Source of the DNA: a virus | Virus record (IMG/VR): IMGVR_UViG_3300020572_000046 | Location: 1 to 21,919 of that record | Reading direction: 5' to 3' (one strand) | DNA: 21,919 nucleotides | Part shown: one piece after another, positions 1-21,917 of the stretch | Layout of the letters: every line of letters starts with the position of its first letter | Position numbering within the stretch: position 1 is the first letter of the stretch | Notes under the pieces: model-generated | Told to the model about the DNA's origin: nothing | The model's database searches: none | Seen by the model: the letters and a program-made list of their open reading frames with translations, nothing else | Position numbers and translations under genes: made by a program

Positions 1-1
1 G

Positions 2-352
2 ATGACAAGCCACTCAAACCTATCTGCCGCATCCAAAGTGTTCGGCAAGATCGCAACGGAGCAAAGCAACCCTGCCGCTGCCGCTTTGGCAATCCACTTG
101 GCAATGGCCGCTTCCGAAGCTTACTGCGCAGAATTGGAGCAACGCCAAGCCGCTGCCGCTCAAACCGTGAAAACACTTCAAATCGAACAGACTCCTTCCG
201 GCCAGTACCGTTACCGCATTGTCTCAACCGTTGACGACGAAATGCACGTTGACGTTGCTTGGCAATTCGGTAGCCGGAACAAGGCAGACACTATCTTGCA
301 AGCGGAAGACCGTTTTCTTGGAAACGCAAAGTACGACATTGAAAGCTACTAA
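2..352 (+). CDS. Hypothetical protein, possibly 5'-truncated
   Basis: I do not recognise this 116-residue protein. The N-terminal half is rich in alanine and glutamine and looks helical (residues about 22-58). The C-terminal half has alternating polar and hydrophobic residues that suggest beta structure (QYRYRIVSTVDD). The ATG is at the second base of the window, so the true start may lie upstream and the length is a minimum. It is followed after 4 nt by a tiny membrane-protein gene with an AATCCC leader, which suggests one transcript. The reading frame is reliable because it stays open and sits neatly beside its neighbour; the function is unknown. Confidence 0.6.
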   Translation: MTSHSNLSAASKVFGKIATEQSNPAAAALAIHLAMAASEAYCAELEQRQAAAAQTVKTLQIEQTPSGQYRYRIVSTVDDEMHVDVAWQFGSRNKADTILQAEDRFLGNAKYDIESY

Positions 353-356
353 TCCC

Positions 357-452
357 ATGCGCCGCAAAATCCTATCCTTCCTATTCGTTACCGTCGCCTA
401 CGCCGTCGCAGGTTACGCGTTTTTCTTCGTTTTCTTTAAATCCCAATTCTAA
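357..452 (+). CDS. 31-residue predicted membrane peptide
   Basis: This very short gene encodes MRRKIL followed by about 20 hydrophobic residues rich in Phe, Val and Ala, then a KSQF tail. The shape is a single transmembrane segment with a positive N-terminus, or an uncleaved signal-like peptide. The start is the ATG that follows TAATCCC, and the next gene (457) has the same TAATCCC-ATG junction, which supports this small frame. No SD is visible. It could be an inner-membrane peptide such as a small lysis or exclusion factor, but nothing in the sequence proves that. It is too short for a family assignment. Confidence 0.5.
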   Translation: MRRKILSFLFVTVAYAVAGYAFFFVFFKSQF

Positions 453-456
453 TCCC

Positions 457-1149
457 ATGACCAAAAACCTCCTATCCGTCGACACCAACGCCAAAACCGT
501 CAAAGGCCAAAAACGCGGCTTCATGACCGGAATTCTCTATCTTGCGCCGGGAAAACTATCTGGCCTCATTAATGTCTGTCCCAATGCGTCCGTCGCTTGT
601 GACAACCTTTGTTTATACTACGCCGGACGCGGCGCATTCAACAGCGTTCAGCAAGCGCGTACAGCAAAGACAATTTTCTACGTCAAAGACCGTGAGGCCT
701 TCCTTTCCACGCTGAAAGAAAACGTCACGTCGGTCATCCGTAAGGCCAAGGCCAAGCGCATGACCCCGGTCATCCGTCTCAACGGTACGTCGGACATTGG
801 ATGGGAACGCTATACGGTCATTCAAGCATTCAAGAAAACCCGTTTCTACGATTACACCAAAAGCTTTCAACGCATGGTTTCCTTTTTAGATGGAAAACTC
901 CCGTCAAACTACAGCCTCACATTCTCACGTTCGGAAACCAACGAAGCCCAATGTCTCGATGTTCTGGCCCGTGGCGGCAACGTGGCGGTAGTCTTTCGCG
1001 GCAAAGTACTGCCGACGCATTGGCAAGGTTTTCCGGTCATCAATGGTGACGAAAACGACCTTCGATTCCTTGACCCCCGTGGCGTGGTCGTCGGCCTTAC
1101 GGCCAAGGGCAAAGCAAAATCCGACACAAGCGGTTTCGTCGTCGGTTGA
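457..1149 (+). CDS. gp88-like phage cysteine protein
   Basis: This 230-residue protein has an N-terminal cysteine motif at residues 41-52 (C41-x6-C48-x3-C52, in CPNASVACDNLC) followed by YYAG. That resembles the CPGxxxCxxxCYA signature of the phage gp88 family and related uncharacterised phage proteins. Later conserved-looking blocks are RLNGTSDI (107-114), FYDYTKS (130-136), FSRSE (156-160) and a C-terminal DPRG...GLTAKGKAK (206-222). Three closely spaced cysteines could bind a metal or an Fe-S cluster, but that is inference. The start ATG follows TAATCCC with no SD. Biochemical function is unknown to me; the family assignment is from motif recall. Confidence 0.75.
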   Translation: MTKNLLSVDTNAKTVKGQKRGFMTGILYLAPGKLSGLINVCPNASVACDNLCLYYAGRGAFNSVQQARTAKTIFYVKDREAFLSTLKENVTSVIRKAKAKRMTPVIRLNGTSDIGWERYTVIQAFKKTRFYDYTKSFQRMVSFLDGKLPSNYSLTFSRSETNEAQCLDVLARGGNVAVVFRGKVLPTHWQGFPVINGDENDLRFLDPRGVVVGLTAKGKAKSDTSGFVVG

Positions 1150-1153
1150 CGGT

Positions 1154-1186
1154 CCGCGTCAAACTATCGGAAACGGTAGTTTGCGG
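1154..1186 (+). other. Intergenic hairpin capped by a GAAA tetraloop
   Basis: Bases 1160-1169 (CAAACTATCG) pair with 1174-1183 (CGGTAGTTTG) over ten base pairs with one G-U pair, closed by the GNRA-type loop GAAA at 1170-1173. An outer CCG (1154-1156) can pair with CGG (1184-1186) across a three-base bulge. It sits 5 nt after the gp88-like stop codon. No T-run follows, so it is not a classic intrinsic terminator. A role in mRNA stability or processing is possible. Confidence 0.55.
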
Positions 1187-1194
1187 CGTGCCTT

Positions 1195-1219
1195 CAATCC
1201 ACTCAATCCACTCAATCCA
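1195..1219 (+). repeat. Tandem 9-nt leader repeat, CAATCCACT x 2.8
   Basis: Two perfect copies of CAATCCACT (1195-1203, 1204-1212) and a partial third (1213-1219) run directly into the ATG at 1220. The same string, CAATCCACTCAATC, recurs at 1458-1471 in the leader of the next gene. There is no SD motif here, so the repeat occupies the ribosome-binding position. Confidence 0.7.
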
Positions 1220-1453
1220 ATGATCAACCGATACTCCGGCCAGTGCGTCCAATGTCACGAACAAGTCCCCGCAGGCCTTGGCACAGTCACCAAACGCAAC
1301 CGCGCATGGCGCATAGACTGCAATGCATGCACCGGACGCATGGCGCAAAGCGCCGACATGGTCTGCGTCAAACTCTCATCCGGCTGGACAGGCACCCGCA
1401 ATGCACGCGGACGCTGCGAAGACGCGCCGTGCTGCGGTTGCTGCTCTTTCTAA
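1220..1453 (+). CDS. Small zinc-finger-like cysteine-rich protein
   Basis: This 77-residue protein has two CxxC pairs, C9-C12 (CVQC) and C34-C37 (CNAC), 21 residues apart, the usual layout of a zinc-ribbon or treble-clef knuckle. The C-terminus is also unusually rich in cysteine (C66, C70, C71, C73, C74). I chose the ATG at 1220 because it directly follows the CAATCC leader repeat; an upstream in-frame extension would overlap the gp88-like gene and lose that leader. Zinc binding is inferred from the cysteine spacing. A nucleic-acid-binding role would be typical for such phage proteins, but it is unproven here. Confidence 0.65.
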   Translation: MINRYSGQCVQCHEQVPAGLGTVTKRNRAWRIDCNACTGRMAQSADMVCVKLSSGWTGTRNARGRCEDAPCCGCCSF

Positions 1454-1489
1454 GTCTCAATCCACTCAATCAAACACGAATAAAACACC

Positions 1490-1759
1490 ATGCAATCTAT
1501 CCAAACAAAATACCTGTCAGCGACTGACTCCAAAGGTTCCCGCATTAAGGCAAAGTGCGCTCGCGGTTCAATCACCATTCCCTTCCCGCACGAATTGACA
1601 GGCGACGAAACCCACCGCGCCGCCGTTCTCGCGCTTGTAACTCGTTTTCTAGATGAAGATTCGGCCAAAGGCACGCCCCGCGAAACCAATTTTTGGAACC
1701 GCGCTTTTGTATCCGGCTCGCTCCCCGACGGCAGCATGGCGCATATCTTCACCACTTAA
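1490..1759 (+). CDS. Conserved phage hypothetical protein (TKYLxATxxKGSRIKA type)
   Basis: This 89-residue protein begins MQSIQTKYL and continues with SKGSRIKAKC, then ITIPFPHEL, a helical segment with HRAAVLALVTRFL, and ends in a GSLPDGSMAHIFTT strand. I recall this layout from unnamed small proteins in many phages, but no function is established that I know of. The start ATG follows AATAAAACACC. The leader carries the CAATCCACTCAATC repeat also seen before the previous gene. Its stop codon TAA opens the 20-nt leader repeat of the next gene. Confidence 0.7.
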   Translation: MQSIQTKYLSATDSKGSRIKAKCARGSITIPFPHELTGDETHRAAVLALVTRFLDEDSAKGTPRETNFWNRAFVSGSLPDGSMAHIFTT

Positions 1760-1776
1760 TCTATCCCCGCGCATCC
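1757..1776 (+). repeat. 20-nt leader repeat, copy 1
   Basis: TAATCTATCCCCGCGCATCC occurs here and again, perfectly, at 1981-2000. Each copy sits immediately before a start codon (ATG 1777 and ATG 2002). In this copy the first three bases are also the stop codon of the upstream gene. Confidence 0.85.
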
Positions 1777-1980
1777 ATGAATTATTACGTCATGCAAACC
1801 GCGCTTTCTAGCGGCTCAAAACCTCAGTTAGTCCAATGGTCAAAAACCGAATCGGACGCCGTCGCCTATGCGCGCCAGCAACTGGACCTTTGGCGTGAAG
1901 TAGGCGTTGCCAATCCCCCGCGCTACGAAGTCCACTACAGCGGCCTTCGCGGCTCCGCCCTCTGGTCTAGTCTGGACTGA
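1777..1980 (+). CDS. Small hypothetical protein
   Basis: This 67-residue protein starts MNYYVMQTALSSGSKPQLVQ and has a central helix (ESDAVAYARQQLDLWREV) followed by a short strand (RYEVHYSG). The order strand-helix-strand suggests a compact alpha/beta fold. I do not recognise it. The ATG is taken because it lies directly after the repeated 20-nt leader, whereas longer in-frame starts would run deep into the previous gene. It is followed by a second copy of the same leader and another small gene, so the two may be co-regulated. Confidence 0.6.
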   Translation: MNYYVMQTALSSGSKPQLVQWSKTESDAVAYARQQLDLWREVGVANPPRYEVHYSGLRGSALWSSLD

Positions 1981-2000
1981 TAATCTATCCCCGCGCATCC
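1981..2000 (+). repeat. 20-nt leader repeat, copy 2
   Basis: Perfect second copy of TAATCTATCCCCGCGCATCC (first copy 1757-1776), separated from the ATG at 2002 by one A. The repeat lies outside coding sequence except for the stop codon of the first copy. Confidence 0.85.
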
Positions 2001-2001
2001 A

Positions 2002-2223
2002 ATGAATAAATCATCCTTCCTCTCTGAATACCGTAAATCCGTTTCCGCGCTCCCTTGGGCATCCAATTCCGACAAACTGGAACGGTTCCTAGAATCCTGC
2101 CGCGCAACGCTCGACGGCGCATCGACTTGGCAATACGACGGCGAACTATGCGTCAAAGCATGGCGCGCAATCGGCGGTAAAGGTAAGCCAACGCTCAAAG
2201 CTCTCCGCGCACTGGCCGAATGA
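2002..2223 (+). CDS. Small hypothetical protein
   Basis: This 73-residue protein is mostly helical. It has a DKLERFLESCRATLDG segment, then WQYDGELCVKAWRAIGGKGKPTLKALRAL, which looks like a helix, a basic glycine turn and another helix. That could be a small nucleic-acid-binding unit, but I cannot assign a family. The start follows the second copy of the 20-nt leader repeat with a single intervening A. After its stop comes a 72-nt gap with a two-tier hairpin. Confidence 0.6.
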   Translation: MNKSSFLSEYRKSVSALPWASNSDKLERFLESCRATLDGASTWQYDGELCVKAWRAIGGKGKPTLKALRALAE

Positions 2224-2268
2224 CCTATCCTCCGCGCCTTATTCGAAAGAGTAGGGCGAAAGGGTAGG
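2224..2268 (+). other. Two-tier intergenic hairpin with GAAA loop
   Basis: The inner stem CCTTATTC (2237-2244) pairs with GAGTAGGG (2249-2256), with two G-U pairs, around loop GAAA (2245-2248). The outer stem CCTATCC (2224-2230) pairs with GGGTAGG (2262-2268), with one G-U pair. It begins directly after a stop codon, and no T-run follows. It resembles the hairpin at 1154-1186 in having a GNRA-type loop. Confidence 0.5.
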
Positions 2269-2273
2269 CCACT

Positions 2274-2289
2274 CTATCCGCAACCAATC
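2274..2289 (+). repeat. 16-nt leader repeat CTATCCGCAACCAATC, copy 1
   Basis: CTATCCGCAACCAATC is found here, 6 nt before the ATG at 2296, and again perfectly at 2571-2586 before the ATG at 2594. Both downstream genes begin ATGAATCC. Confidence 0.8.
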
Positions 2290-2295
2290 GAAAGT

Positions 2296-2556
2296 ATGAA
2301 TCCAATTAACGACACTTCCATTATCTGGGGTAATTCCAATACAGTAATCGCCATAGCCATGGCTTGCGGCTCAAAGCCGATTGTAACCCATTACAACGAT
2401 GGGCAAAAGGTGACTTCTGTAGCGGTCAGTTTTGAAGGCGGATACGACGATTATAATGGATCGTGCGCGTGGGCCGAAGTACCGGGAGATTATCCCGGTA
2501 AACCAACGCGGTTTTCACCCCGTCCGGGAAAGTGGATGTCCGGAGTGCGCGTTTAA
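2296..2556 (+). CDS. Hypothetical protein
   Basis: This 86-residue protein contains a hydrophobic stretch (TVIAIAMACGSKPIV) and several aromatic and acidic residues (EGGYDDYNGSCAWAEV), then a basic, proline-rich C-terminus. The composition suggests a small beta-rich domain. I do not recognise the family. The start lies 6 nt after a 16-nt leader repeat shared with the next gene. Both the repeated leader and the tight spacing argue that it is real. Confidence 0.6.
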   Translation: MNPINDTSIIWGNSNTVIAIAMACGSKPIVTHYNDGQKVTSVAVSFEGGYDDYNGSCAWAEVPGDYPGKPTRFSPRPGKWMSGVRV

Positions 2557-2570
2557 TCAACTATCCCAAT

Positions 2571-2586
2571 CTATCCGCAACCAATC
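2571..2586 (+). repeat. 16-nt leader repeat CTATCCGCAACCAATC, copy 2
   Basis: Second perfect copy of the leader repeat at 2274-2289, 7 nt before the ATG at 2594. Confidence 0.8.
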
Positions 2587-2593
2587 CCGAATC

Positions 2594-3208
2594 ATGAATC
2601 CAAAGCTAATCCCCATCCTTGAACGCATCATTGCTCGCGAGACGATCCTGCTATCGTTCCACGCGGACAACCTACCTCAGGCCGCGCTTGCCTATGTGCG
2701 CCAGCATTACCTCAACGACAATTTCCTTTGGCTCGCGCCTGACGAGCAGGACTTAATCGAGGAACTCCCTCCGTTCGCGGACAACCTATCCGAATCCATT
2801 CGCCCCGGCGGAGGTATCGGCAACCCCGATTCGTCCGTCTATCACCTATTCGACGACGGCTCTTTGTGGCTCAAAACCAACGCGTACAGCTCCGTCTGGA
2901 CGGACGCGACAGACTTTGCCGTCGAGATTATCCTCCCGCGCATGGAATTATCCCGCATGGACGCGCAATTGCTCCGCGCCATCGAAATGGAAGATGCCGT
3001 CGAATCCGTTCGCGCCGACTTTTATTCATCCTTCGCCCATGTCCTTAACCGCGATTGTGGCATACCCTATTGCGACGCACGCGAACACTGGAACGCCTAT
3101 TCGCGCCAGTTGGGCGACGGCGCACGCGAAGAAGCAGAGCTTGGCGGTTCCGAATCAGGCCGCAAGGAAGGTCTTCGTTTCGCAGAATCATTCACCGTCA
3201 AAGCCTGA
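2594..3208 (+). CDS. Hypothetical phage protein, 204 residues
   Basis: This is a largely helical acidic protein with an N-terminal MNPKLIPILERIIARE helix, a middle region rich in Asp, Pro and Trp, and a C-terminal region containing HVLNRDCGIPYCDAREHWNAY. I do not recognise it. I chose the ATG at 2594 because it follows the 16-nt leader repeat used by the preceding gene; a start at 2432 would overlap that gene by 125 nt. The next gene starts 4 nt after its stop. No transmembrane segment or catalytic motif is evident. Confidence 0.65.
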   Translation: MNPKLIPILERIIARETILLSFHADNLPQAALAYVRQHYLNDNFLWLAPDEQDLIEELPPFADNLSESIRPGGGIGNPDSSVYHLFDDGSLWLKTNAYSSVWTDATDFAVEIILPRMELSRMDAQLLRAIEMEDAVESVRADFYSSFAHVLNRDCGIPYCDAREHWNAYSRQLGDGAREEAELGGSESGRKEGLRFAESFTVKA

Positions 3209-3212
3209 ACCA

Positions 3213-3566
3213 ATGAAAACCCATACCCCCGGCCCTTGGCTTGTCCGATTCGACGAGGATCAATTCGACCCAACGCATTCGACTCTTAAGATCATCGATG
3301 GCCGTGAAGAATCGGTGAACCATACACACGGCGCGCTATCCCTCGCCTTCATCAACGTAAGCGCCTTCGCGCCTCACATGGACGAACCGCTTGCAAATGC
3401 CCACTTAATCGCCTCCGCGCCTGAATTGTTATCCGCGCTTGAAGCCGTGACGAAAGCCTATGTGGAACTGGTTCAGTCTGATTATCCGCCTTCGTGGAGT
3501 GCTGAGAAAGACAGTGAAGTCATCGCAGCACGTAAAGCCATCGCGAAAGCAAAAGGAAACGAGTGA
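3213..3566 (+). CDS. HTPGPW/NAHLIASAPELL-type conserved phage protein
   Basis: The 117-residue protein begins MKTHTPGPW and contains NAHLIASAPELLSALE (residues about 62-77), ending in a basic helix with ARKAIAKAKG. This HTPGPW...NARLIAxAPELLxAL layout is widespread in unnamed phage proteins. The role is unknown. A shorter paralogue lies at 3753, with nearly the same core motif and the same AIxKAKG ending, so this locus holds a duplication. Its stop overlaps the GTG start of the next gene (GTGA). Confidence 0.75.
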   Translation: MKTHTPGPWLVRFDEDQFDPTHSTLKIIDGREESVNHTHGALSLAFINVSAFAPHMDEPLANAHLIASAPELLSALEAVTKAYVELVQSDYPPSWSAEKDSEVIAARKAIAKAKGNE

Positions 3567-3748
3567 AAACCAAACAGCCAACCTATCGCGAACTTTACCT
3601 GAGCGCCTATGCGGCCCACGCGCAAGAGGAGGGAAAATATCAGCGACTGCTTTACATCACGCGCAAGATTGCGAAAGCGATTCCCGCAGGGCATGAAGTC
3701 CTGAAAGATTGGGAAGATTGGGAAGAGCAAATCAAAGAAAACGAATAA
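3563..3748 (+). CDS. Small hypothetical protein
   Basis: This 61-residue helical protein is rich in lysine, glutamate and tyrosine and ends in a Trp/Glu-rich tail (WEDWEEQIKENE). The GTG start overlaps the upstream stop by 4 nt (GTGA), a junction used repeatedly in this genome, which supports the frame. I do not recognise a family. It is inserted between the two NAHLIASAP paralogues and is presumably co-translated with the first. Confidence 0.55.
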   Translation: MKTKQPTYRELYLSAYAAHAQEEGKYQRLLYITRKIAKAIPAGHEVLKDWEDWEEQIKENE

Positions 3749-3752
3749 AATT

Positions 3753-4013
3753 ATGCCAAGAAATTACCTTAAAGACCCAAGCGACGGACCTTGGAAGCGT
3801 ACCTTGGGCTTGTACACCGGATGGGAAATCATGGATTCCAATGGACATATCATCGCGCAAGTAATCGACAATACCCACGGCAAGCCAAACGCCCATTTAA
3901 TCGCCTCCGCCCCCGATCTTCTCTCCGCGCTGGAACGTCTGGCGCATCCGATGGCCGACGATGACGATTTAGACTACGCTCGCGCCATCATCAGGAAGGC
4001 GAAAGGGCTTTGA
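3753..4013 (+). CDS. NAHLIASAPDLL-type protein, paralogue of the 3213 gene
   Basis: This 86-residue protein has a GPW near the N-terminus (DGPWKRT), a central strand region, then NAHLIASAPDLLSALERL (residues about 46-63) and a C-terminal ARAIIRKAKG helix. It is a shortened version of the protein at 3213, from which it differs mainly by lacking about 30 internal residues. The start follows AATAAAATT, a non-SD leader common in this window. Function is unknown; it is a conserved phage-type small protein. Confidence 0.7.
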   Translation: MPRNYLKDPSDGPWKRTLGLYTGWEIMDSNGHIIAQVIDNTHGKPNAHLIASAPDLLSALERLAHPMADDDDLDYARAIIRKAKGL

Positions 4014-4080
4014 GCCGCTCCGTTTATCCGGTAAATCGGGGGTGCGCGCATCCGTTCAACGCGTAAACGAGAATAAAATC

Positions 4081-4437
4081 ATGCATCCATTGCTCTTATC
4101 CGCGCTTATCCAGATCGAATCCCACGGAAACGATCATGCCCGTGGCCGTCACGGCGAACTTGGCGCGCTCCAGATCAAACCGATCATGGTCCGCGACGTA
4201 AACCGCATCATGGGGACGCATTACGCGCACGCCCAAGTCACCAACCGCGCCGTCGCGACGTTCATCGCCCACGCATACCTTTCGCATTACGGACGCAATC
4301 TCAGCGACGAATCGCTCGCAAGGATCTGGCAGGGTGGGCCAACAGCCATAAGTCGTTCCTCCTCCCGCGCCTATGGTCGTCGTGTCATGCGAAAACTTTC
4401 CTCTCTCGAAATTAGTCAAACAACAGCAAAGAAATGA
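4081..4437 (+). CDS. Lysozyme/transglycosylase-like small protein
   Basis: This 118-residue protein has ALIQIESHGNDHA near its N-terminus, with a candidate catalytic glutamate at E13. It continues with GELGALQIKPIMVRDVNRIMG and, near the C-terminus, LARIWQGGPTA. This matches the lysozyme-like transglycosylase layout (IxxxESxGN...GxxQI...IWNGGP), in which the glutamate attacks the glycan backbone of peptidoglycan. I chose ATG 4081, preceded by AATAAAATC, over the in-frame codon at 4042, which lacks a plausible leader and would add 13 unrelated residues. No signal peptide is seen. It could act in lysis or in cell-wall entry. It ends in a 4-nt overlap with the next gene. Confidence 0.7.
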   Translation: MHPLLLSALIQIESHGNDHARGRHGELGALQIKPIMVRDVNRIMGTHYAHAQVTNRAVATFIAHAYLSHYGRNLSDESLARIWQGGPTAISRSSSRAYGRRVMRKLSSLEISQTTAKK

Positions 4438-4667
4438 AACTAACCATCCAGTCCAAACAGAACGCCCAGACCATCGTGGACCTGTTCAACGCCATCCTAA
4501 CCGGCGAGGAAGCCGAAAACGGCGCAACCCCGCTCTCAATTTACGACGACAACAAACATATCTGCTCGCTCATCGCGAAGGATGGCCATCAGATCCTTGA
4601 ATTGATCATCGAGCGCGAGGACGGCGACGTGCTTTGCTCCAGTACACCTGATCTGGAGACGCTATGA
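4434..4667 (+). CDS. Small hypothetical protein
   Basis: This 77-residue acidic protein has a helix (NAQTIVDLFNAILTGEEAEN) followed by alternating strands (LSIYDDNKHICSLIAKD, QILELIIERED). No known family is recognised. The ATG overlaps the upstream stop (ATGA), and its own stop overlaps the next start in the same way, so it belongs to a tightly coupled run of four genes from 4081 to 5250. Confidence 0.6.
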   Translation: MKLTIQSKQNAQTIVDLFNAILTGEEAENGATPLSIYDDNKHICSLIAKDGHQILELIIEREDGDVLCSSTPDLETL

Positions 4668-5008
4668 TAACTGGAACAAACGGACCGTATAACGCATACG
4701 AAATCTTAGAGTTTGTTGAAAAAAAATATAAGGACGAATCTTTGAAGGCGCGAAATATCCCGCTCGATGAGTTGGCCAAACAACTCGAACTGATGGCCGA
4801 TGATTTTCAGAATCCTTTCATCGCATCCGCATCAACCCGTCTCGCGCACGTCGCCGCCGCGCTCACCTGCCTTCAGGACGCGCTTTTCTACGTCCGAATG
4901 TATCAGTGCGCGGATACGACTGGCGAGGGCGAGAAACGACGGCAACAACTCATCGATGATTCGGAAACAATCATCAGCGTCATCCGCGCCGGAGGGATGT
5001 ATCCATGA
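4664..5008 (+). CDS. Hypothetical helical protein
   Basis: This 114-residue protein is predicted mostly helical, with segments DELAKQLELMADDF, TRLAHVAAALTCLQDALFYV and RRQQLIDDSETIISVIRAGG. I do not recognise it. The start is ATGA-coupled and has a possible SD (GGAG) 5 nt upstream, better than most genes here. It belongs to the coupled run that leads into the methyltransferase locus. Confidence 0.6.
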   Translation: MITGTNGPYNAYEILEFVEKKYKDESLKARNIPLDELAKQLELMADDFQNPFIASASTRLAHVAAALTCLQDALFYVRMYQCADTTGEGEKRRQQLIDDSETIISVIRAGGMYP

Positions 5009-5250
5009 GCCGCAACCTGTTCGCGAAGCCAGTCTACAAAGTCCAGCTATCCGGCGCGATTGGCTGGAGCGACATGAAGGAGAAGGTCGTCAGCTACCGC
5101 ACGGTCGAATTCGCGTCGCGCAAGGATGCGGAGAAAGCGGCGCGTGAATTGAATCCCGGCGAGTACACGCAAGGGCGGATTCGGGTCGTCCCGGTCGAAC
5201 TCAGCGAGGACTACGATATCTATCCGGTAGCAGAACGATCCAAGCCGTGA
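5005..5250 (+). CDS. Small hypothetical protein upstream of the methyltransferase locus
   Basis: The 81-residue protein has several beta-like segments (KPVYKVQLSGAIGW, RTVEFASRKDAEKAARELN, RIRVVPVELSEDYDIYPV) around one helix, which suggests a compact alpha/beta domain. It is ATGA-coupled to the upstream gene with a GGAGGG about 8 nt before the start. Its stop codon overlaps the GTG at 5247 (GTGA), the start of the WPTP-type frame. No family is recognised. Confidence 0.6.
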   Translation: MSRNLFAKPVYKVQLSGAIGWSDMKEKVVSYRTVEFASRKDAEKAARELNPGEYTQGRIRVVPVELSEDYDIYPVAERSKP

Positions 5251-6047
5251 ACCCGCCGTGCATCATCATCCCGTCAATCTTGTCGAATTCTGTGCCGGAT
5301 ATTGCGGCATTGGAATTGGACTCAAGTCGGCTGTCCCGCATCTACGCACTATCGCTTACGTCGAAAGGGAAGCATACGCCGTCGCAAATCTGGCTGCGAA
5401 AATTGAAGAGGGACGACTGGATGCAGCACCTATCTGGACGGACCTGCTCGCCTTCCCATACGCAAAATTTCGAGGACTGGTGGATATCGCGGCTGCGGGA
5501 ATCCCCTGTCAGCCCCACAGCCACGCCGGACTCCGCAAAGGTGGAGCCGATGAAAGATTTCTCTTTAACGACTGGCTCATTGGACTCCAGCAAATGCGTC
5601 CGCGCTGCATCCTCATCGAAAACGTCGAAGGCTTGCTTACCAGTCTTATGCCAGACGGAACTCTTTGCATCCGATGGACGCTGGAGAGATTGGAGCGCAT
5701 GGGCTACCGCGTTGCGAGCGGACTATTCAGCGCGGAAGAATGCGGCGCGCCACATATTAGGAAGCGGATCTGGATTCTGGCCTACGCCGACAGCGAACGA
5801 GGACAAGGATCAGAATGCTTCCTTCGCGACGCTTGCGCGACTGGACCGGGGGGGGCGTATCCTGCGACGGATAGCGACATTGACGATGCGTGGAAGTGGC
5901 CCAGTGGACCAAATGAACCTCAACGATGGTGGGAACCGGCGCGAACGCTTGAATCCAGCTTGGGTCGAAAGTCTGCTCGGTCTGCCGTTATCTTGGACCG
6001 CTTGCGACTCCTCGGAAACGGAGTCGTCCCCGCAACCGCCAATCTAG
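5247..6047 (+). CDS. WPTP/LNPxWVE-type phage protein overlapping the C5-methyltransferase
   Basis: This 266-residue frame is embedded in the methyltransferase gene, shifted by one base, yet reads like a recurrent phage protein type. It has SQIWLRKLKRDDWMQHLSG (47-64), RDWSAWATALRADYSARK (147-164), GFWPTPTANED (176-186) and LNPAWVESLLGLPLSWT (235-251). I recall these blocks from unnamed phage proteins often seen near C5-methyltransferases. It is rich in Ser, Arg, Pro and Trp and poor in acidic residues, as overprinted frames often are. The GTG start overlaps the upstream stop by 4 nt, the normal coupling in this genome. It is either a true second protein or an unusually conserved shadow frame. 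Function is unknown. Confidence 0.5.
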   Translation: MNPPCIIIPSILSNSVPDIAALELDSSRLSRIYALSLTSKGKHTPSQIWLRKLKRDDWMQHLSGRTCSPSHTQNFEDWWISRLRESPVSPTATPDSAKVEPMKDFSLTTGSLDSSKCVRAASSSKTSKACLPVLCQTELFASDGRWRDWSAWATALRADYSARKNAARHILGSGSGFWPTPTANEDKDQNASFATLARLDRGGRILRRIATLTMRGSGPVDQMNLNDGGNRRERLNPAWVESLLGLPLSWTACDSSETESSPQPPI

Positions 6048-7619: not shown

Positions 7620-7876
7620 AAGTTTATACGGCCAAACAAACAGCAGCTATGCTCCAAATCTGCTGCGAAACGCTACGGCGGATCGTGCGCCATGACGGCG
7701 TCCAGCATAGGAGAATTGGCCGACGAATCTTGTTCACCGAGTCCGACATCGCCGCGATTCTGACGAGTCGAGCGACAACCGGAGCAGTGAACCCATACGC
7801 AAGAAAAACAAAGAAACAACAAGAGAATACAAATGAGCAGCAACCAATTAGCGACAACGCAACCGTCCAGTCCTGA
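7616..7876 (+). CDS. Helix-turn-helix DNA-binding protein (excisionase/MerR-like)
   Basis: The 86-residue protein begins with a winged-helix-like HTH: YTAKQTAAMLQICCETLRRIVR (4-25), then a basic RRIGRRILFTESDIAAIL segment (32-49). This is the typical pattern of excisionase-type HTH_17 domains (helix, turn, recognition helix, then KIGRRxxFxxxDI). The C-terminal 30 residues are Gln/Lys/Thr-rich and look disordered. The start is GTG, overlapping a doubtful upstream frame. Its last 44 nt overlap the RecT-like gene. It may regulate the recombination module or act as an architectural factor; no integrase is in the window. Confidence 0.75.
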   Translation: MKVYTAKQTAAMLQICCETLRRIVRHDGVQHRRIGRRILFTESDIAAILTSRATTGAVNPYARKTKKQQENTNEQQPISDNATVQS

Positions 7877-8627
7877 CTTCTACGACCGCATCGACAGTCC
7901 GATGGACGCGGTTAAGACGATGGGCGACTGGATCGCACATTCCGGCATGTTCGGATGCGTGAAACCTGAGCAAGGCTATGTCCTAGCTTTGGAATGCATC
8001 GCCAGCCGGATGACTCCGCTGAGCTGGAAAAGAGAGAACCACTTGATCAACGGAAACATCACCATGAAGAGCGAATCGATGCTCTCTGGCCTGATGACCG
8101 CCGGTTGGGACATCGACTGGATTCAGTTCGACTCAGTCGCCGCCATCGCCGACTTCTCGAAAGGCGTGAAGAAGGTCCGCGTCTCATTCACCGCAGAGGA
8201 TGCGAAGATTGCCGGTCTAATCCCCGCGAAAGCTGGCAGTGGCTGGGCGAAATTCCCGGCAGAGATGCTGCGAGCGCGAGTCATCAGCAAGGCAACGCGA
8301 ATGCTCGATCCGCGAATCACGCAAGGTCGTTACACGCCCGAGGAAGTAGCCGACTTCTCCTCTGCGCCGTCAACACCCACCATCACCGCTACGACGCGCC
8401 AGACGGTCAACGTGACGCCGGAACCAGCCTTCTCGCTCGTTGAGAAGTTAGAGCAGATTCTTGAGCCACATTCTGATATCGCCAATGCGTTCCTCGTCAG
8501 CAAGAACCTGATCAAGGAAGGCCAGAACTTCCGCGATGTATCCACGAAGGTGGCCAACATGATCCTCGCTGATGCGAGTGGTTTCATTACCAAAGCAACC
8601 GCGTTCGCTAACCCGCCCACCGAATGA
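7833..8627 (+). CDS. RecT/Bet-like single-strand annealing protein
   Basis: It probably binds single-stranded DNA and anneals complementary strands in phage recombination. The 264-residue product has SGMFGCVKPEQGYVLALEC (37-55), INGNITMKSESM (72-83), a conserved PAEMLRARVISKATRMLDP block (142-160) and YTPEEV (167-172). These match the core of phage RecT-like recombinases, where the RAR-type helix is highly conserved. The C-terminal third is Thr/Pro-rich and then helical. The gene is ATGA-coupled to the RecE-like nuclease, the standard exonuclease-annealing pair. The exact family within the annealing superfamily is uncertain. Confidence 0.75.
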   Translation: MSSNQLATTQPSSPDFYDRIDSPMDAVKTMGDWIAHSGMFGCVKPEQGYVLALECIASRMTPLSWKRENHLINGNITMKSESMLSGLMTAGWDIDWIQFDSVAAIADFSKGVKKVRVSFTAEDAKIAGLIPAKAGSGWAKFPAEMLRARVISKATRMLDPRITQGRYTPEEVADFSSAPSTPTITATTRQTVNVTPEPAFSLVEKLEQILEPHSDIANAFLVSKNLIKEGQNFRDVSTKVANMILADASGFITKATAFANPPTE

Positions 8628-9433
8628 GCATCCTCAACCAACACGTCAATCTCGACATGCCAGCGGAGAAGTATCACGCCGTTGATGCTCTCTCGAAGAG
8701 CATGATGTCGAAGATCCTCAAGTCCCCGGCTCATTACAAAGCCGCGCTGGAGGAGCATCAGGAGCCGAGCAAGGCCATGCAGATGGGTACGGCGATTCAC
8801 ACCGCTGTACTAGAGCCGCAACTGTACTCGCAAGTCGTCGCCGTTGTTCCGCCGGACATCGACGGACGTACGAAAGAAGGCAAAGCGTGGAAGGAACAGC
8901 ACAAGTCGCGCATCCACCTGACGCACGCAGAGGACATCGACGTGCAAGGAGTGGCCAACAGTGTCCGTCGTCATCCGTTCTGGGACATCATTCATCTGCG
9001 GCATAGGATCGTGCCGCATAGGATCGAGGCGAGCGTGTTCGCTCAAGACGAGGAAACCGGCATCGCCCTTAAGGCGCGTCCCGATCTGTGGATCGAGGGT
9101 CATACGCTCGTTGACATCAAAACAACCGACGACGCATCGCCCGAGGCGTTCCTTCGAACCATCGCATCGTTCGGCTATCACATACAGGCCGCGCACTATC
9201 TGGAGATGACTGGAGCAGATAGCTTCATCTTTGTAGCGGTCGAGCGCAAAGCGCCATACGCCGTCGCAATCTATCGACTGGATGCCGAATGGCTTCAGGC
9301 TGGCGCGAATCTGCGACGCAAAGCAATCTCGACGCTGCACGAATGCCGCGCACTGGACAGTTGGCCAGCCTATCCAACCGCTACGCAAACCCTTTCATGC
9401 CCTAAGTGGGTTCTGAATAAATCCGAAAACTAA
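8624..9433 (+). CDS. RecE-like PD-(D/E)XK exonuclease
   Basis: It likely resects double-stranded DNA ends to expose strands for the partner annealing protein. The 269-residue product carries the RecE C-terminal/DUF3799-type nuclease pattern: LSKSMMSKILKSPAHY (24-39), GTAIHTAVLEP (55-65), E135 in RIEAS, KARPDLW (150-156, D154), VDIKTTDDAS (163-172, D164 and K166) and YHIQAAHYLE (185-194). Those residues form the expected metal-binding and catalytic set. The start ATG overlaps the upstream stop by 4 nt. It lacks the long N-terminal region of E. coli RecE, as is normal for phage versions. Confidence 0.85.
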   Translation: MSILNQHVNLDMPAEKYHAVDALSKSMMSKILKSPAHYKAALEEHQEPSKAMQMGTAIHTAVLEPQLYSQVVAVVPPDIDGRTKEGKAWKEQHKSRIHLTHAEDIDVQGVANSVRRHPFWDIIHLRHRIVPHRIEASVFAQDEETGIALKARPDLWIEGHTLVDIKTTDDASPEAFLRTIASFGYHIQAAHYLEMTGADSFIFVAVERKAPYAVAIYRLDAEWLQAGANLRRKAISTLHECRALDSWPAYPTATQTLSCPKWVLNKSEN

Positions 9434-17444: not shown

Positions 17445-20400
17445 TTATCTTCCAAAAAAGTTTGAAACAGATTTAGAAACATTGTCAAAAGTTTGACGCG
17501 CAGAACTTAAAACAGGTTCCGCTTCCTCTTTGTTAAGCATCACTCGATCTGTCTCCATCTTCAAAATACGCGGCCACATGCGCTCAATCTTGTCTATCTG
17601 GCCTTTTGTGGCCGCATCCAAAGGCTTTGAAACAATGTCCAAGTATTCTGGTGTTTTAAGAATTCTGCCAACCGCAGCGTCAACAGCTTCTTTCATCCCT
17701 TCCTTAACCTTGCCGTATGCAGCATATCCTCCAAGTCCAACGCCAAGTCCAACTTCCCCGTAAAGCCTATACCCAAGTGCGCCGACAAGCGTTGGGGCAA
17801 CAATCTTTGTGAAAATACTTGGCTTTCCAAGCCCTGACACTCGCTCCAACTGGTTTGCAACCGTGTTGATTCGATTAACTCCATCTTCCCCGAGCAATCT
17901 TTGAGTTGCTTCGTAATACTTGCCCGGAGCATCACTATTTCCAACAAGAGACGAAATCTTCTTAGTGTCGATCTTTGTGCCGTTAAAAGACTCAGAAACA
18001 ATCCTTCCGATCAGCATGTTCTGCGCGTCGTTTATCAGGTCTGGGCGCTCTTTCCCAACGACCTCCATAAATCGACGGACACGATAATCGGATGAAATTT
18101 CAGCACCTTTTCCCGGTGCCAAGAAATCTATTAGATTTGACGGATTGAAACTCTCAAGCTGACCACCCGGTTGCATTGATTTTTTAACAACTCCGTAGAA
18201 CCTGTCTTTTGCAGCACTCGTCACCTCGATAGCTCGTTCAAGAGCTTTGTAAAGCGGAAGACCACCCTCCGTTGAAAGCTCACGAACAACCTCATCCAAC
18301 TTAAACGAATCAAGAGCGTCACTTTTTGAGGCTCCAGCCTTGTTCACTTCCGCTCTAATTTTACCAAGAGACTTTATGATTTCATTTTCTCTCTCAGTAA
18401 CATTCGAAGCCTTTAGTACAGCAATCTTAGATGTAACTTTGTCAAACTGAGAATTTACGGCATTAAGTTTTTCCTGTGCGCCTTTAATCCCATCATCAAC
18501 TTGCTTTGTCAGACCATTAATCTGCGATGACAAGTTTTTAGACTCGCCTTCAAGCACTGCTCTTTGATCAATTAACGAGCCGTACTTTGATGCAACATCA
18601 TTGATTTCAGAAAGGTCTGGAAACAAATCGTTGATGACTTCTTTTTGAATTCCAGTTGCAAACCCGCCTTTTCCTTTTGTGAGTCCTTTCAGAAAATCGT
18701 TTGGATTTTCACCTTTGATTTGCGTGTAAACAAATTCCCTAAGACTTGGCTCAATTTCTCCATACCTGTTTCCAAGCATGTTCTTTAGCAGCTTGAGGTT
18801 TTGCGCTCCGTTTGCGCCTGAGATTGTTGAAACTATCCCCGGCATACCTCCAGCTTCTCCAGCCTCTCGAAGCACCTTGTCTGCAAAGAACCCTTTGAAC
18901 CTAGAGATTCCTGTGCTGTAAAACTTGTTTTCAGCTTCGAGCAAACCCTTAAGACCGGGGTCGTTCAACAATGCTTTGTCAAGCTGTTCGTTAATTTTAT
19001 CGAGTTCTTCAAATACAGAATAGTCAGCTTTTTGAACCTGCTTATTGAAATCAATTTCTTTAAGAATTTCGCTTCTTTCTTTTCTTAATTGATTTGCAGT
19101 CTTTACAATCTTTTTTCCATCAGGTCCAATTTCAGTCGAAGTTATTTTTACCTTGTCTAGTCGAGGCTCTAGTTTTCCATAACCTTTATTGCTTTCATCT
19201 TTAAAAAGCTGAAGCTCTTCACGTCCAATTTCCTGAACACGTTGGCCAAGTTCTTCTTTTGATATTCCAGAGGCAGGACCGTATCCACGCACAGCTCCAG
19301 CTTGGATATCTTGAATCTGCTGGTTGATTACAGAAATCTCATCTTCTATCCGTTTTCTTTCAATTGATTCATCTGGAAGCAATTTCTTCTTAGCTTCAAG
19401 ATCGTTGATCTGGTTGATCAAAGGCTGAGAGTCGGTTGCGTACCTTCCTTCAAAACCTCTAACAAGATCAGTCAACCTCTTGTTTCTGGAAGCATATTTC
19501 TGATCTATTATATTTGTTACATCTGTGACTAGCTTTTCAGATTTTGTAACAAACTGATCAACAGCGTCTCCTGCAATTTTGTCCGCATTTTGAACGTAAT
19601 TGCCAAGTTGAGTTTTAATTGAGTCTGATATTTCGGATCTGGACAAACCAGACGATGATCCTTGGCCAAACGAATCTGAGACTATTTTCGCAATATTGTT
19701 CCTGAACTCATCAGGTTTAAGTCCAGAGTTAGGGGAGTACAGCGTTCTTGCAATGTCGTCTGCAAATTGAGATGACAATCCGCCAGCACCTCGACGTTCA
19801 AGTTCTTTTTGAATTTCAGTTCCACGATCCTTGATGAATTGCTGCGTAAACGGACGCTCAAACTCAGCGGCAATCAGCCTTGGATTTACGCTCCTTGCTC
19901 GAACCACTGCTCCGATAGCTCCCGGAACCGTTTCGCCAGCCATGCTTAGAAATCCACCAAGTCCGGTGCGAAAAAGAATATCTTCGTAATTCGCACTTTC
20001 ATCATCAAGAGATTCCAACCCAGCCTGAGCTGCGGATGTTAAAGTTCCTGACCCAACTCCAAGTGCAACCTGCTTCAACTTGCTGGCTTTTTGGCCAATG
20101 TTGAATCCGGGTACAGCGGCTGCTGCCATCTCGCCACCTTTGTATTCGTCAGGAGAAATCGTTTGAGAAACGCCTTGGCTTGCAAGCCCGATGCCGCCTT
20201 CCACCAAGGCTCCAGTAACAGGTCCAAGACCAGCAATGAACGGAGCAGCAACAAGCGATGGTACTGTTGCGGCGTACAACGCTGAAGCCTTACGCATTCC
20301 GCGAGACTCAGCTTGTGCCATCGGAGTAAGCTGTCCAGATGGATCAATTCGGCCACCTTCCATTGGTGCGAGCATTCCAACAGGATCGGCAAGCTGGCCA

Positions 20401-20648
20401 TACTGCCACGGCACCAATCCTCCAACCTCTGCGGATCGTTTCACTGCTTCGCTCATGTCTGGAGGCAACGCGCCAACCAATCCCTGCTCTTCGCGCCGAC
20501 GCATTTCAGCAATGGTGGCTGGAGCCGATGGCTGCGCCGAACCACGCAAAGCTGAAAGAACGTCGGCTTCTGTCGGCTGCGTATCAGACTCCAGAACAAC
20601 CCGCTTCTGAACTCCGTTGTCATCAACTGTTACAGCAAAGCGTGGCAT
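17445..20648 (-). CDS. Large internal virion-like protein, 1067 residues
   Basis: The protein begins MPRFAVTVDDNGVQKRVVLE, a small beta domain (3-34), then has a Gly/Ala-rich hydrophobic region (121-162) that includes LVAAPFIAGLGPVTGALVEGG. A long helical middle part rich in Lys, Glu, Gln and Asn reads as coiled coil, and a second Gly-rich hydrophobic segment lies at about 949-979 (VAPTLVGALGYRLYG, GVGLGGYAAYG). This mix of great length, coiled coil and glycine-rich hydrophobic segments fits internal virion (ejection) proteins of podoviruses, but no specific family was recognised. It starts next to another virion-like gene, with ATG in the CATATG after that gene's stop. No transglycosylase motif is present in it. 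Confidence 0.6.
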   Translation of the reverse strand: MPRFAVTVDDNGVQKRVVLESDTQPTEADVLSALRGSAQPSAPATIAEMRRREEQGLVGALPPDMSEAVKRSAEVGGLVPWQYGQLADPVGMLAPMEGGRIDPSGQLTPMAQAESRGMRKASALYAATVPSLVAAPFIAGLGPVTGALVEGGIGLASQGVSQTISPDEYKGGEMAAAAVPGFNIGQKASKLKQVALGVGSGTLTSAAQAGLESLDDESANYEDILFRTGLGGFLSMAGETVPGAIGAVVRARSVNPRLIAAEFERPFTQQFIKDRGTEIQKELERRGAGGLSSQFADDIARTLYSPNSGLKPDEFRNNIAKIVSDSFGQGSSSGLSRSEISDSIKTQLGNYVQNADKIAGDAVDQFVTKSEKLVTDVTNIIDQKYASRNKRLTDLVRGFEGRYATDSQPLINQINDLEAKKKLLPDESIERKRIEDEISVINQQIQDIQAGAVRGYGPASGISKEELGQRVQEIGREELQLFKDESNKGYGKLEPRLDKVKITSTEIGPDGKKIVKTANQLRKERSEILKEIDFNKQVQKADYSVFEELDKINEQLDKALLNDPGLKGLLEAENKFYSTGISRFKGFFADKVLREAGEAGGMPGIVSTISGANGAQNLKLLKNMLGNRYGEIEPSLREFVYTQIKGENPNDFLKGLTKGKGGFATGIQKEVINDLFPDLSEINDVASKYGSLIDQRAVLEGESKNLSSQINGLTKQVDDGIKGAQEKLNAVNSQFDKVTSKIAVLKASNVTERENEIIKSLGKIRAEVNKAGASKSDALDSFKLDEVVRELSTEGGLPLYKALERAIEVTSAAKDRFYGVVKKSMQPGGQLESFNPSNLIDFLAPGKGAEISSDYRVRRFMEVVGKERPDLINDAQNMLIGRIVSESFNGTKIDTKKISSLVGNSDAPGKYYEATQRLLGEDGVNRINTVANQLERVSGLGKPSIFTKIVAPTLVGALGYRLYGEVGLGVGLGGYAAYGKVKEGMKEAVDAAVGRILKTPEYLDIVSKPLDAATKGQIDKIERMWPRILKMETDRVMLNKEEAEPVLSSARQTFDNVSKSVSNFFGR

Positions 20649-20651
20649 ATG

Positions 20652-21917
20652 TTATTGTCCGATGATTTCAGTTGAGATGATCTTGATTCCTCCAGATGAA
20701 GGAGCCGGAGCTGATTGCTGTTGTTTACCAAACGGTGTAAACGGCAGATTGTATTTCTCAACAAGTTCGTTGGCCAACTTAACCCGTTCTCTGCTAATTT
20801 TGTAATCAGTTTTATACTGATCTATAATGTTGTACAAATTTTCTGCTGCAAACTTAGCAAAGTTATTTGCATCGTTAACAAAGTTTTTGCTCCTGATGTC
20901 ACCGATTGCTGATTTCAATCGAACTGTTTCAGGCTGTGTAACGGCTTTACCAGACGTTGCAAACGCTTCGCTGTTAAATACCGTATTGAACCTTTGGAGG
21001 ATTGAATACGCTTCACGTTCCTCATTTGTTGCTGCTGAATTTAATCTTTTTTTCAGCTCCCCAAGCCTTCCGTCAATTATGCCAACGTAGTTTTGAATTT
21101 TTCCTTTTCCGTACATTTTATCAAATCTGTTTAATTCATTAATTAATGCAGACGATTGCTGCGCTGTTGAATAATCCCCGCTAATTTCTTTTGCTACATC
21201 TCCAGTAGGAAGATCCCATTTGTTTGACATTATTCTATTCTTTACATCATTTTCAGTAAATTTGTCTGGAGTTCCAAACAATTCTTTCCAGTTTTCAAGT
21301 GCGCCAACAGCAATGTCTTGGCGCATGCCTTCGGTTTGAGATGGGCGACCTAATCGACGAGCCTCAACATTGGTGCGAGCAGTCTTGATTCGTTGCTCAA
21401 TTGGAATATTTTTGTCCAACTGATAAACCTCTTCGGAAATTTCCGTGCCAAGGTCTTTGATAATTTTTGCCTCACTCATCTGCTGCCTGATTGCGGGGGC
21501 GTTTTTCTGATAAACCTCCTCGTTAATCTGACCTGTCTGAGGATCAAAAACATCGAAGCCCTGATTCTGCATCTCTGTTATGATGTCAGACCTAGTCTTT
21601 TCGAACTGTTCACGAGCCTTGATAATTTTCGCTCGCGGAGAATACTGCTGAAGACCTTGATAAGCCCTAGTCGCCTCCTGATTGAACACCTTTGACTTGA
21701 AGCGTGGCAGTGCAGGCATTGGAGACTTCAACTCAGGATCGTTGAAATACGTTCCAACATCCTCATTAAACTTCTGAAACGTATCGTACTCAGCAGCCTG
21801 ATTGGCCTGCTCATCCAATGCTTGAGCATAAGCATTAGACCGAATCTTGTTCTGAAGCTCCATGCCCTGCCGCTGGAGTAGCGACTCCGCCGTCTGCACC
21901 TGCAATTGCTCCATCAT
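20652..21917 (-). CDS. Virion-like coiled-coil protein, possibly truncated at the window edge
   Basis: At least 421 residues lie in the window, and the first visible ATG is 2 bases from the edge, so the N-terminus may continue outside. The sequence is Gln/Asn/Lys-rich and almost entirely helical (MEQLQVQTAESLLQRQGMEL, EREAYSILQRFN, KISRERVKLANELVEKYN), with a Pro/Ser-rich C-terminal part that ends in ISTEIIGQ. It lies immediately upstream of the 1067-residue protein in the leftward block and shares its A/T-rich base use. A role as an internal virion or tail-associated protein is inferred from size, composition and position; no family was recognised. Confidence 0.55.
   Translation of the reverse strand: MMEQLQVQTAESLLQRQGMELQNKIRSNAYAQALDEQANQAAEYDTFQKFNEDVGTYFNDPELKSPMPALPRFKSKVFNQEATRAYQGLQQYSPRAKIIKAREQFEKTRSDIITEMQNQGFDVFDPQTGQINEEVYQKNAPAIRQQMSEAKIIKDLGTEISEEVYQLDKNIPIEQRIKTARTNVEARRLGRPSQTEGMRQDIAVGALENWKELFGTPDKFTENDVKNRIMSNKWDLPTGDVAKEISGDYSTAQQSSALINELNRFDKMYGKGKIQNYVGIIDGRLGELKKRLNSAATNEEREAYSILQRFNTVFNSEAFATSGKAVTQPETVRLKSAIGDIRSKNFVNDANNFAKFAAENLYNIIDQYKTDYKISRERVKLANELVEKYNLPFTPFGKQQQSAPAPSSGGIKIISTEIIGQ

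Follow-up and report, generated by a model that had tools for sequence, protein, structure and literature searches.

IMG/VR record IMGVR_UViG_3300020572_000046 is a linear viral sequence of 21,919 bases, which may be a fragment, and the whole record constitutes the window analysed here. It carries an arm of small genes together with replication and recombination genes, the latter recognized by PHROG matches to a RecT-like protein, an exonuclease VIII-like nuclease, an SSB-like protein, a helicase, a Holliday resolvase-like protein and a primase. This work concerns the array of small genes between the gene for GP88 and the gene at position 2594 (genes are named by the position of their start), in which neighbouring genes are preceded by the same short leader strings. 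An initial annotation had described these strings as stereotyped leaders lacking a Shine-Dalgarno (SD) sequence, and had proposed that they might be unusual initiation signals, binding sites for a regulator, or recombination joints that allow small genes to be swapped.

The window has no DNA-level match among named phages, and the 412- and 749-residue proteins (unknown family) have no near relative there; GP88 itself occurs widely, at less than 60% identity. A scan of IMG/VR with GP88 (457–1149, PF17338) found 118 relatives; the 80 best were retained (L003–L082), and gene families were built from these 80 loci and the window. L003 is the same phage as the window, while L001 and L002 are pieces of the window and were left out of all counts; the window, L003 and L094 represent one phage and are counted separately in the 113-sequence slot count and in the empty-site comparison. 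No tRNA or known RNA was found in the window. The array and its flanks, including two stem-loops termed H1 and H2, are laid out as follows (ORF, open reading frame; nt, nucleotides).

350–356, plus strand: TAATCCC leader of a 31-residue ORF at 357; a similar ORF is seen by eye in L078, L005 and L075
450–456, plus strand: TAATCCC leader of GP88; the leader before GP88 varies in relatives
457–1149, plus strand: GP88 gene (PF17338, phrog_1617), conserved left border of the array
1160–1183, plus strand: stem-loop H1, 10 base pairs with a GAAA loop, starting 10 nt behind the GP88 stop codon
1195–1219, plus strand: CAATCCACT repeat leader of gene 1220
1220–1453, plus strand: 77-residue gene (family 4), absent in L078
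1456–1471, plus strand: second copy of CTCAATCCACTCAATC, within the gene 1490 leader
1490–1759, plus strand: 89-residue gene (family 21)
1757–1776, plus strand: joint leader, first copy, starting with the stop codon of gene 1490 and standing before gene 1777
1777–1980, plus strand: 67-residue gene (family 30), absent between families 21 and 49 in L098, L099 and L102
1981–2001, plus strand: joint leader, second copy, before gene 2002
2002–2223, plus strand: 73-residue gene (family 49)
2224–2270, plus strand: stem-loop H2
2274–2289, plus strand: 16-nt leader, first copy, behind H2 and before gene 2296
2296–2556, plus strand: 86-residue gene (family 50), between H2 and gene 2594
2571–2586, plus strand: 16-nt leader, second copy, before gene 2594
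2594–3208, plus strand: 204-residue gene (family 7), conserved right border

Every repeat named by the initial annotation is present. The string before genes 1220 and 1490, CAATCCACTCAATCCACTCAATCCA, occupies 1195–1219 and abuts the ATG at 1220, with a second copy ending 18 nt before the ATG at 1490; the exact string common to the two leaders is the 16-nt CTCAATCCACTCAATC, at 1202–1217 and 1456–1471. What had been given as a 20-nt repeat before genes 1777 and 2002 is a perfect 21-mer, TAATCTATCCCCGCGCATCCA, at 1757–1777 and 1981–2001, in whose first copy the final base is the A of the start codon, hence the 20 nt upstream of that start. A perfect 16-mer, CTATCCGCAACCAATC, stands before genes 2296 and 2594 (2274–2289 and 2571–2586). 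With uniform bases, 0.003 exact repeat pairs of 16-mers and 3e-6 of 21-mers are expected in 5 kb, and repeats of 16 and 21 nt far exceed what chance would give. The TAATCCC pair before 357 and 457 (350–356 and 450–456) is only 7 nt long and says little; its 32-nt extension is 75% alike. The annotation had called the downstream proteins not obviously related, and they are unrelated in the three pairs compared by BLASTP (Expect 10 for 1777 and 2002, Expect 15 for 2296 and 2594, no alignment for 1220 and 1490); paralogy between paired genes was rejected on this ground as an origin of the repeats. Promoters and intrinsic terminators were likewise rejected as a cause, since positions 1–6000 hold 3 promoter-like and 5 terminator-like patterns against 3.6 and 7.6 expected.

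A search of the relatives for the same leaders before other genes, which the annotation had suggested, found the same strings in front of unrelated families, and a few strings serve many gene contexts. In gaps listed by their neighbouring families (gaps above 160 nt and ORFs below 40 codons dropped), CCCCGCGCATCCA lies between families 21 and 30, 30 and 49, 44 and 34, and 22 and 59, ACCCAACGCATCCA recurs between 0 and 11 and between 54 and 34, and AACGAAYAAAACACC stands before families 0, 21 and 32. At least 14 exact leader nt are common to 83 of 1391 context pairs that have no family in common, compared with a mean of 0.87 and a maximum of 3 in 30 dinucleotide-preserving shuffles (gaps below 12 nt dropped), and when applied to the first 45 nt of coding sequence and to the final 45 nt of the upstream gene, the same test yielded 4 and 0 pairs, respectively. 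When the H2 contexts were all left out, 23 of 632 pairs still shared at least 14 nt, as against 0.85 (maximum 3) in 60 shuffles; the start of family 35 falls inside H2 in L012 and L044 and is probably wrong, which touches this last test, the listing and the flank-pair test given below. Furthermore, seven leader strings of 9–11 nt were scanned on both strands of three long relatives and the window, and those detected lay on the array strand only, mostly within the array and at few places elsewhere.

The reverse also occurs, as gene 21 (genes of relatives are named by family) stands behind AACGAATAAAACACC, ATCAAATCCAATCCC or ATCAAATCAAAACCATC in different relatives. Since it occurs with such different leaders, no single one of these strings is a gene-specific signal that must be present. 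The annotation had named as contrary evidence homologous genes with unrelated leaders and unchanged expression; the first half is what gene 21 displays, and the other half concerned expression. In L081 and L082, the leader of gene 21 contains tandem AACCCTAAACCC repeats whose number varies, which suggests slippage.

Comparison of the relatives further reveals that genes come and go at these leaders. In the window the order is gene 21, joint leader, gene 30, joint leader, gene 49 and H2, with both leader copies perfect, whereas L098, L099 and L102 have gene 21, a single joint leader, gene 49 and H2, gene 30 being absent; the flanking gene ends in L098 and L102 score 0.84–0.98 against the window. 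Another arrangement, in which gene 21, the joint leader and gene 30 are followed directly by H2 and gene 49 is absent, is found in L020, L078, L081, L082 and L101. Similarly, gene 2296 is flanked by copies of the 16-nt repeat, and gene 1220, which is missing in L078, lies between two CTCAATCCACTCAATC copies. In the slot count, for which 13 loci on already included contigs were removed, a relative of gene 2594 is present in 90 of 113 sequences, and the 3′ arm of H2, AGGGTAGGC, lies upstream in 90/90. It stands directly before the gene in 71 of the 90, while the other 19 have at least one inserted gene, of at least six kinds as judged by eye.

The joint leader was also sought throughout IMG/VR as a joint-plus-ATG pattern, TATCCCCGCGCATCCAATG, disregarding the neighbouring genes, which gave 36 places in 34 contigs. 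The frame behind the ATG is open for 67–110 codons at 35 of the 36 places and for 23 codons at one (L206). The neighbours fall into five upstream and six downstream clusters, three of the latter being variants of gene 30 by eye, and form 12 cluster pairs or about 11 gene pairs; the pair of genes 21 and 49 occurs in six contigs, three of which are those of L098, L099 and L102. Two upstream genes, 21 and 44, are each combined with MKITAI and with 49, and genes 44 and 30 are each combined with 49 and 34, while a looser pattern applied to the collected loci adds a third such set (genes 44 and 21 with 30 and 49). Complete four-combination sets of this kind require recombination or repeated insertion or loss at the joint.

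With regard to translation, the description of the leaders as SD-less is true of the array genes, but it is general in the whole phage and not special to the array. Among leaders whose gap is 15 nt or longer in the three long relatives and the window, SD-like tetramers occur, by contig and strand, in 1/16, 0/10, 0/16, 2/11, 1/18, 0/5, 0/17 and 0/1, and in the three long relatives they are rare in the leaders of both arms. Counting all 32 listed starts of the window, overlapping genes included, five have such a tetramer (4664, 5005, 7422, 10255 and 13905). The final 25 nt of 203 distinct leaders of the group, taken from an earlier gene set that had no preference for G-poor leaders, consist of 35% A, 33% C, 21% T and 11% G, the G content being 11.4% in leaders and 25.4% in genes, and SD-like tetramers are found in 5 of the 203 leaders versus 72 of 811 control positions within genes. 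The mean folding energy of the 40 nt around starts is -2.27 kcal/mol, compared with -7.96 kcal/mol inside genes. A is frequent at positions -14 (0.56), -13 (0.45) and -5 (0.63), and is also enriched at -6, while it reaches only 0.25 at -12. By composition and folding model, the leaders are A/C-rich, G-poor and unstructured and look like SD-independent starts. The idea that they are unusual initiation signals holds in this respect, but most starts of the phage are SD-less and the leader of gene 21 varies.

In the Bacteroidetes, SD-independent initiation has been described in Flavobacterium johnsoniae, where, as far as the available part of the source goes, A at -3, -6, -12 and -13 promotes initiation (PMC6847099). 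Few SD sequences, low structure and an A-rich context are found in the phage leaders as well, and the enrichment of A at -14 and -13 is shared; however, the phage leaders lack the -12 enrichment, are also C-rich, and recur as exact strings, so that their likeness to the Flavobacterium starts described in this portion of the source (PMC6847099) is partial. A weak hint to an SD-poor host lineage comes from L092, a 4.5-kb contig in an Akkermansiaceae metagenome bin, which encodes a protein 92% identical to the 412-residue leftward protein of the group. In that bin, an SD-like tetramer precedes the first ATG in 0 of 24 long ORFs (12 contigs) versus 6 of 72 control positions; the ORFs are few and the contig may be misbinned, and Akkermansiaceae would be a possible host lineage at most. 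No relative of GP88 was found in genome contigs.

The array is further marked by the two stem-loops. H2 abuts the stop codon of gene 2002 and comprises two helices with a GNRA-type loop. It is present in 73 of the 81 sequences, and the eight without it stop 313–1064 nt beyond GP88, so that they may have been truncated short of H2. A pattern scan of IMG/VR for H2 gave 52 contigs, of which L174 and L190 carry no group protein and look like chance; among 46 newly fetched H2 loci, 12 lack both gene 2594 and GP88, and other proteins of the group are encoded in 10 of them. In 40 distinct H2 sequences, 93.1% of the cells pair and 48 cells have a double change, as against 12.2 in shuffles and 0–4 in slid alignments. 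H1, which follows GP88, fits 28 of 35 distinct sequences, the other seven having been removed before alignment; in these 28, 97.5% of cells are paired and 52 have a double change, versus 18.1 in shuffles. RNAalifold adds outer pairs to H1 (1154–1157 with 1186–1189), of which 1154/1189 is non-standard in the window. Both stem-loops have the apical motif YAU-NN-GNRA-NN-GUR, which, with at least eight pairs, occurs 111 times forward and 0 times reverse in the 81 sequences, 0 times in five second-order Markov controls, and once, on the array strand, in each of the three long contigs. A covariance-model search of the window with Rfam 15 gave no match for H1 or H2 up to E 1. The covariation argues that H1 and H2 act as RNA, and they appear to be elements that punctuate the array, perhaps in message processing or protein binding; they are better candidates for binding sites than the leaders.

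Two further observations concern the stem-loops. Behind GP88, the usual H1 is replaced in L010, L011, L019, L020, L021, L071, L073 and L079–L082, where other hairpins are visible by eye, and a hairpin, rather than one particular sequence, seems to be required at this site. In L074 (4710–4756), a copy of H2 has the 5′ arm of one type and the 3′ arm of another, one pair being C-U, which looks like the result of recombination inside the loop.

We consider it probable, at roughly 70%, that the repeats are at once SD-free translation leaders and homology joints of a shuffled small-gene array between GP88 and gene 2594. Of the earlier proposals, the swapping of small genes at recombination joints is supported by leader sharing beyond composition, by the empty sites and by the many pairings with four-combination sets. 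At the RNA level, each joint would provide an SD-free, A/C-rich, G-poor leader, predicted to be unstructured and presumably active in initiation. At the DNA level, the same few strings occur before unrelated genes, so that different contexts have 14–27 exact bases in common at the gene borders. The comparison of relatives shows that whole genes have been gained, lost and re-paired at the leaders, most clearly where two leader copies surround a gene and a single copy is present in relatives without it. We infer that exchange uses the homology of the leaders, that translation from the leaders is efficient, and that H1 and H2 serve in processing or as binding sites. The exchange itself is probably homologous annealing by two products encoded downstream of the array.

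7833–8627, plus strand: RecT-like annealing protein (PHROG match only), a candidate for joining at short homologies
8624–9433, plus strand: exonuclease VIII-like PDDEXK nuclease

The 412-residue leftward protein of three phages of the group is 94 and 96% identical to the first of them while the gene content of the array differs, which would fit a conserved core with an exchangeable accessory slot.

Several points weigh against this interpretation. The RecT-like assignment comes from one PHROG match (E 9e-9) with no Pfam match, and recombination is visible by its outcomes only, namely the empty sites and the four-combination sets, of which none was found at two further joints, AACGAAYAAAACACC (27 junctions, 5 pairings) and AACGCATCCA (26 junctions, 3 pairings). 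Where gene 1220 is missing, in L078, the one leader present resembles the window repeat without matching it exactly, and the flanks of insertions are more alike than shuffles in 14 of 42 distinct pairs at p ≤ 0.05 and in 6 of 42 at p ≤ 0.01; flanking repeats thus appear to be common at insertions, not general. The starts and genes are our own calls, with a family gene set that favoured G-poor leaders, and since the contigs are metagenomic and related, contig counts are not counts of independent events. As for the stem-loops, the number of H2 pairs with a double change shows no excess over shuffles (4 versus 3.4; 215/500), and two of the 18 pairs fail in 21/40 and 22/40 sequences; because of this, the support for H2 consists of few pairs with many changes. 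The corresponding number for H1 is barely above shuffles (6 versus 4.9; 70/500). In addition, selection for contact with the ribosome or with a common regulator could maintain the shared leaders. Finally, leader 1757 aligns well by eye with the 5′ half of H2 (CTATCC-CCGCGCATC-CATG), with p 0.02–0.06 uncorrected for the 140 leaders tested; its origin as an H2 fragment was rejected on these figures, and a copy of the H2 5′ half is only a suggestive lead.

Selection of this kind is the core of an explanation that we regard as unlikely, although it has several observations on its side, in which a regulator of phage or host origin (an RNA-binding protein, a processing enzyme or a translational activator) binds the leaders, with or without the stem-loops, and so coordinates the array. 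The leaders lie near starts and are strand-specific, covariation is seen in H1 and H2, which also have their strand-restricted apical motif in common, and similarly placed repeats of cluster K mycobacteriophages have been proposed, in the portions of the sources available, to act in initiation or regulation (PMC3203893, PMC12699233). However, the leaders are several unlike strings, one gene has different strings in relatives, and 7 of the 35 distinct sequences behind GP88 do not fit H1; moreover, under any reading, the empty sites and the four-combination sets can only be accounted for by recombination or by repeated gain and loss. Convergence is very improbable: any A/C-rich, unstructured and SD-free leader might look alike, and the low G content, the simple composition and the 7-nt TAATCCC case agree with this, but chance and composition are contradicted by the shuffles, which preserve dinucleotides and yield about one shared pair with the H2 contexts or without them. 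We give hardly any credence to an integron-like, site-specific cassette system that uses the hairpins as recombination sites. The array is cassette-like in that genes are followed by a hairpin, and L005 and L006 have one gene between two H2 copies; nevertheless, five records, which may be incomplete, contain no tyrosine recombinase above the cut-off (there is one match below it, in G011) and no serine resolvase, the best-documented exchanges occur at a leader without its own hairpin, and the covariation speaks for RNA.

Integron gene cassettes are single genes lined up one after another with a repeated element between them. The phage array resembles them in its single genes, its repeated joint element and the hairpin in some joints, and differs from them by the lack of an integrase above the cut-off in the five records and by the absence of a hairpin from its clearest joint. 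A closer parallel is offered by the boundary (linker) sequences that have been proposed in mosaic phage genomes and which, in the excerpts available, are short homologies at borders where unrelated genes are exchanged. Short conserved sequences between exchanged, non-homologous modules are likewise found here, but compared with what those excerpts describe, one joint occurs at 36 places, connects about 11 different pairs of genes and is at the same time a translation leader. In the open-licence PMC literature, as far as excerpts go, nothing on the topic of similar joints or linkers was found beyond PMC3029335.

The Start-Associated Sequences (SAS) of cluster K mycobacteriophages are, according to the available part of PMC3203893, short repeats located just before starts in one orientation in the non-structural half, which precede different gene families and about half of which are accompanied by an inverted repeat. 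The phage repeats also lie a few nt from starts, in one orientation and in the non-structural arm. They differ from what that part of the source reports in that SAS have one 13-bp consensus with an SD core, and this consensus, GGGATAGGAGCCC, has 0 matches within 2 mismatches in the window. The ESAS is a 17-bp imperfect inverted repeat beside the SAS, for which the same portion gives little support for RNA pairing (PMC3203893), whereas H1 and H2 covary as RNA in a window without SAS; cassette exchange at SAS is not claimed there (PMC3203893). The phage joints can be regarded as a variant of boundary-sequence mosaicism, and neither boundary sequences nor SAS fit them fully.

A dedicated phage cassette system is a more specific version, which we put forward tentatively and hold to be doubtful. 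Here, the joint from stop to start would itself be selected as leader and homology target, allowing single small genes to be exchanged in frame-safe units, while the GNRA-capped stem-loops would mark fixed borders of the slots in which exchange takes place, and a phage protein may act on them. More generally, the gene border in this array can be seen, is short, recurs in many pairings and is represented in dozens of contigs, which makes the idea of gene exchange at such borders directly testable. The array also suggests how a leader that needs no SD pairing can work for whatever gene follows it, and yields a small catalogue of exchangeable, unstudied phage genes as well as two candidate RNA elements without an Rfam match.

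Some minor observations lie beyond the array. Before gene 4081, a possible hairpin, GGGTGCGCGCATCC, is seen by eye at 4014–4080, and relatives reuse leader-type CGCGCATC strings at this junction. On the minus strand, 17445–21917 contains two long ORFs (1067 and 421 residues) with no PHROG match and no Pfam match above the cut-off. A capsid identity for the conserved 412-residue leftward protein was dropped, as PHROGs and Pfam give no match. In the 5′ leader of its gene (L003, 600–700, minus strand), a conserved and potentially structured element, GGTAGGCC...GGACCTAC, is recognizable by eye. Another stretch outside the window, L003 1316–1365, contains the near-invariant TTTTTGAGGGGGGTATCGTAAACGAAG upstream of a leftward ORF, with 10-mers found in 75–79 of the 80 loci (relatives L004–L082), and is possibly a conserved leader or a frameshift-like site.

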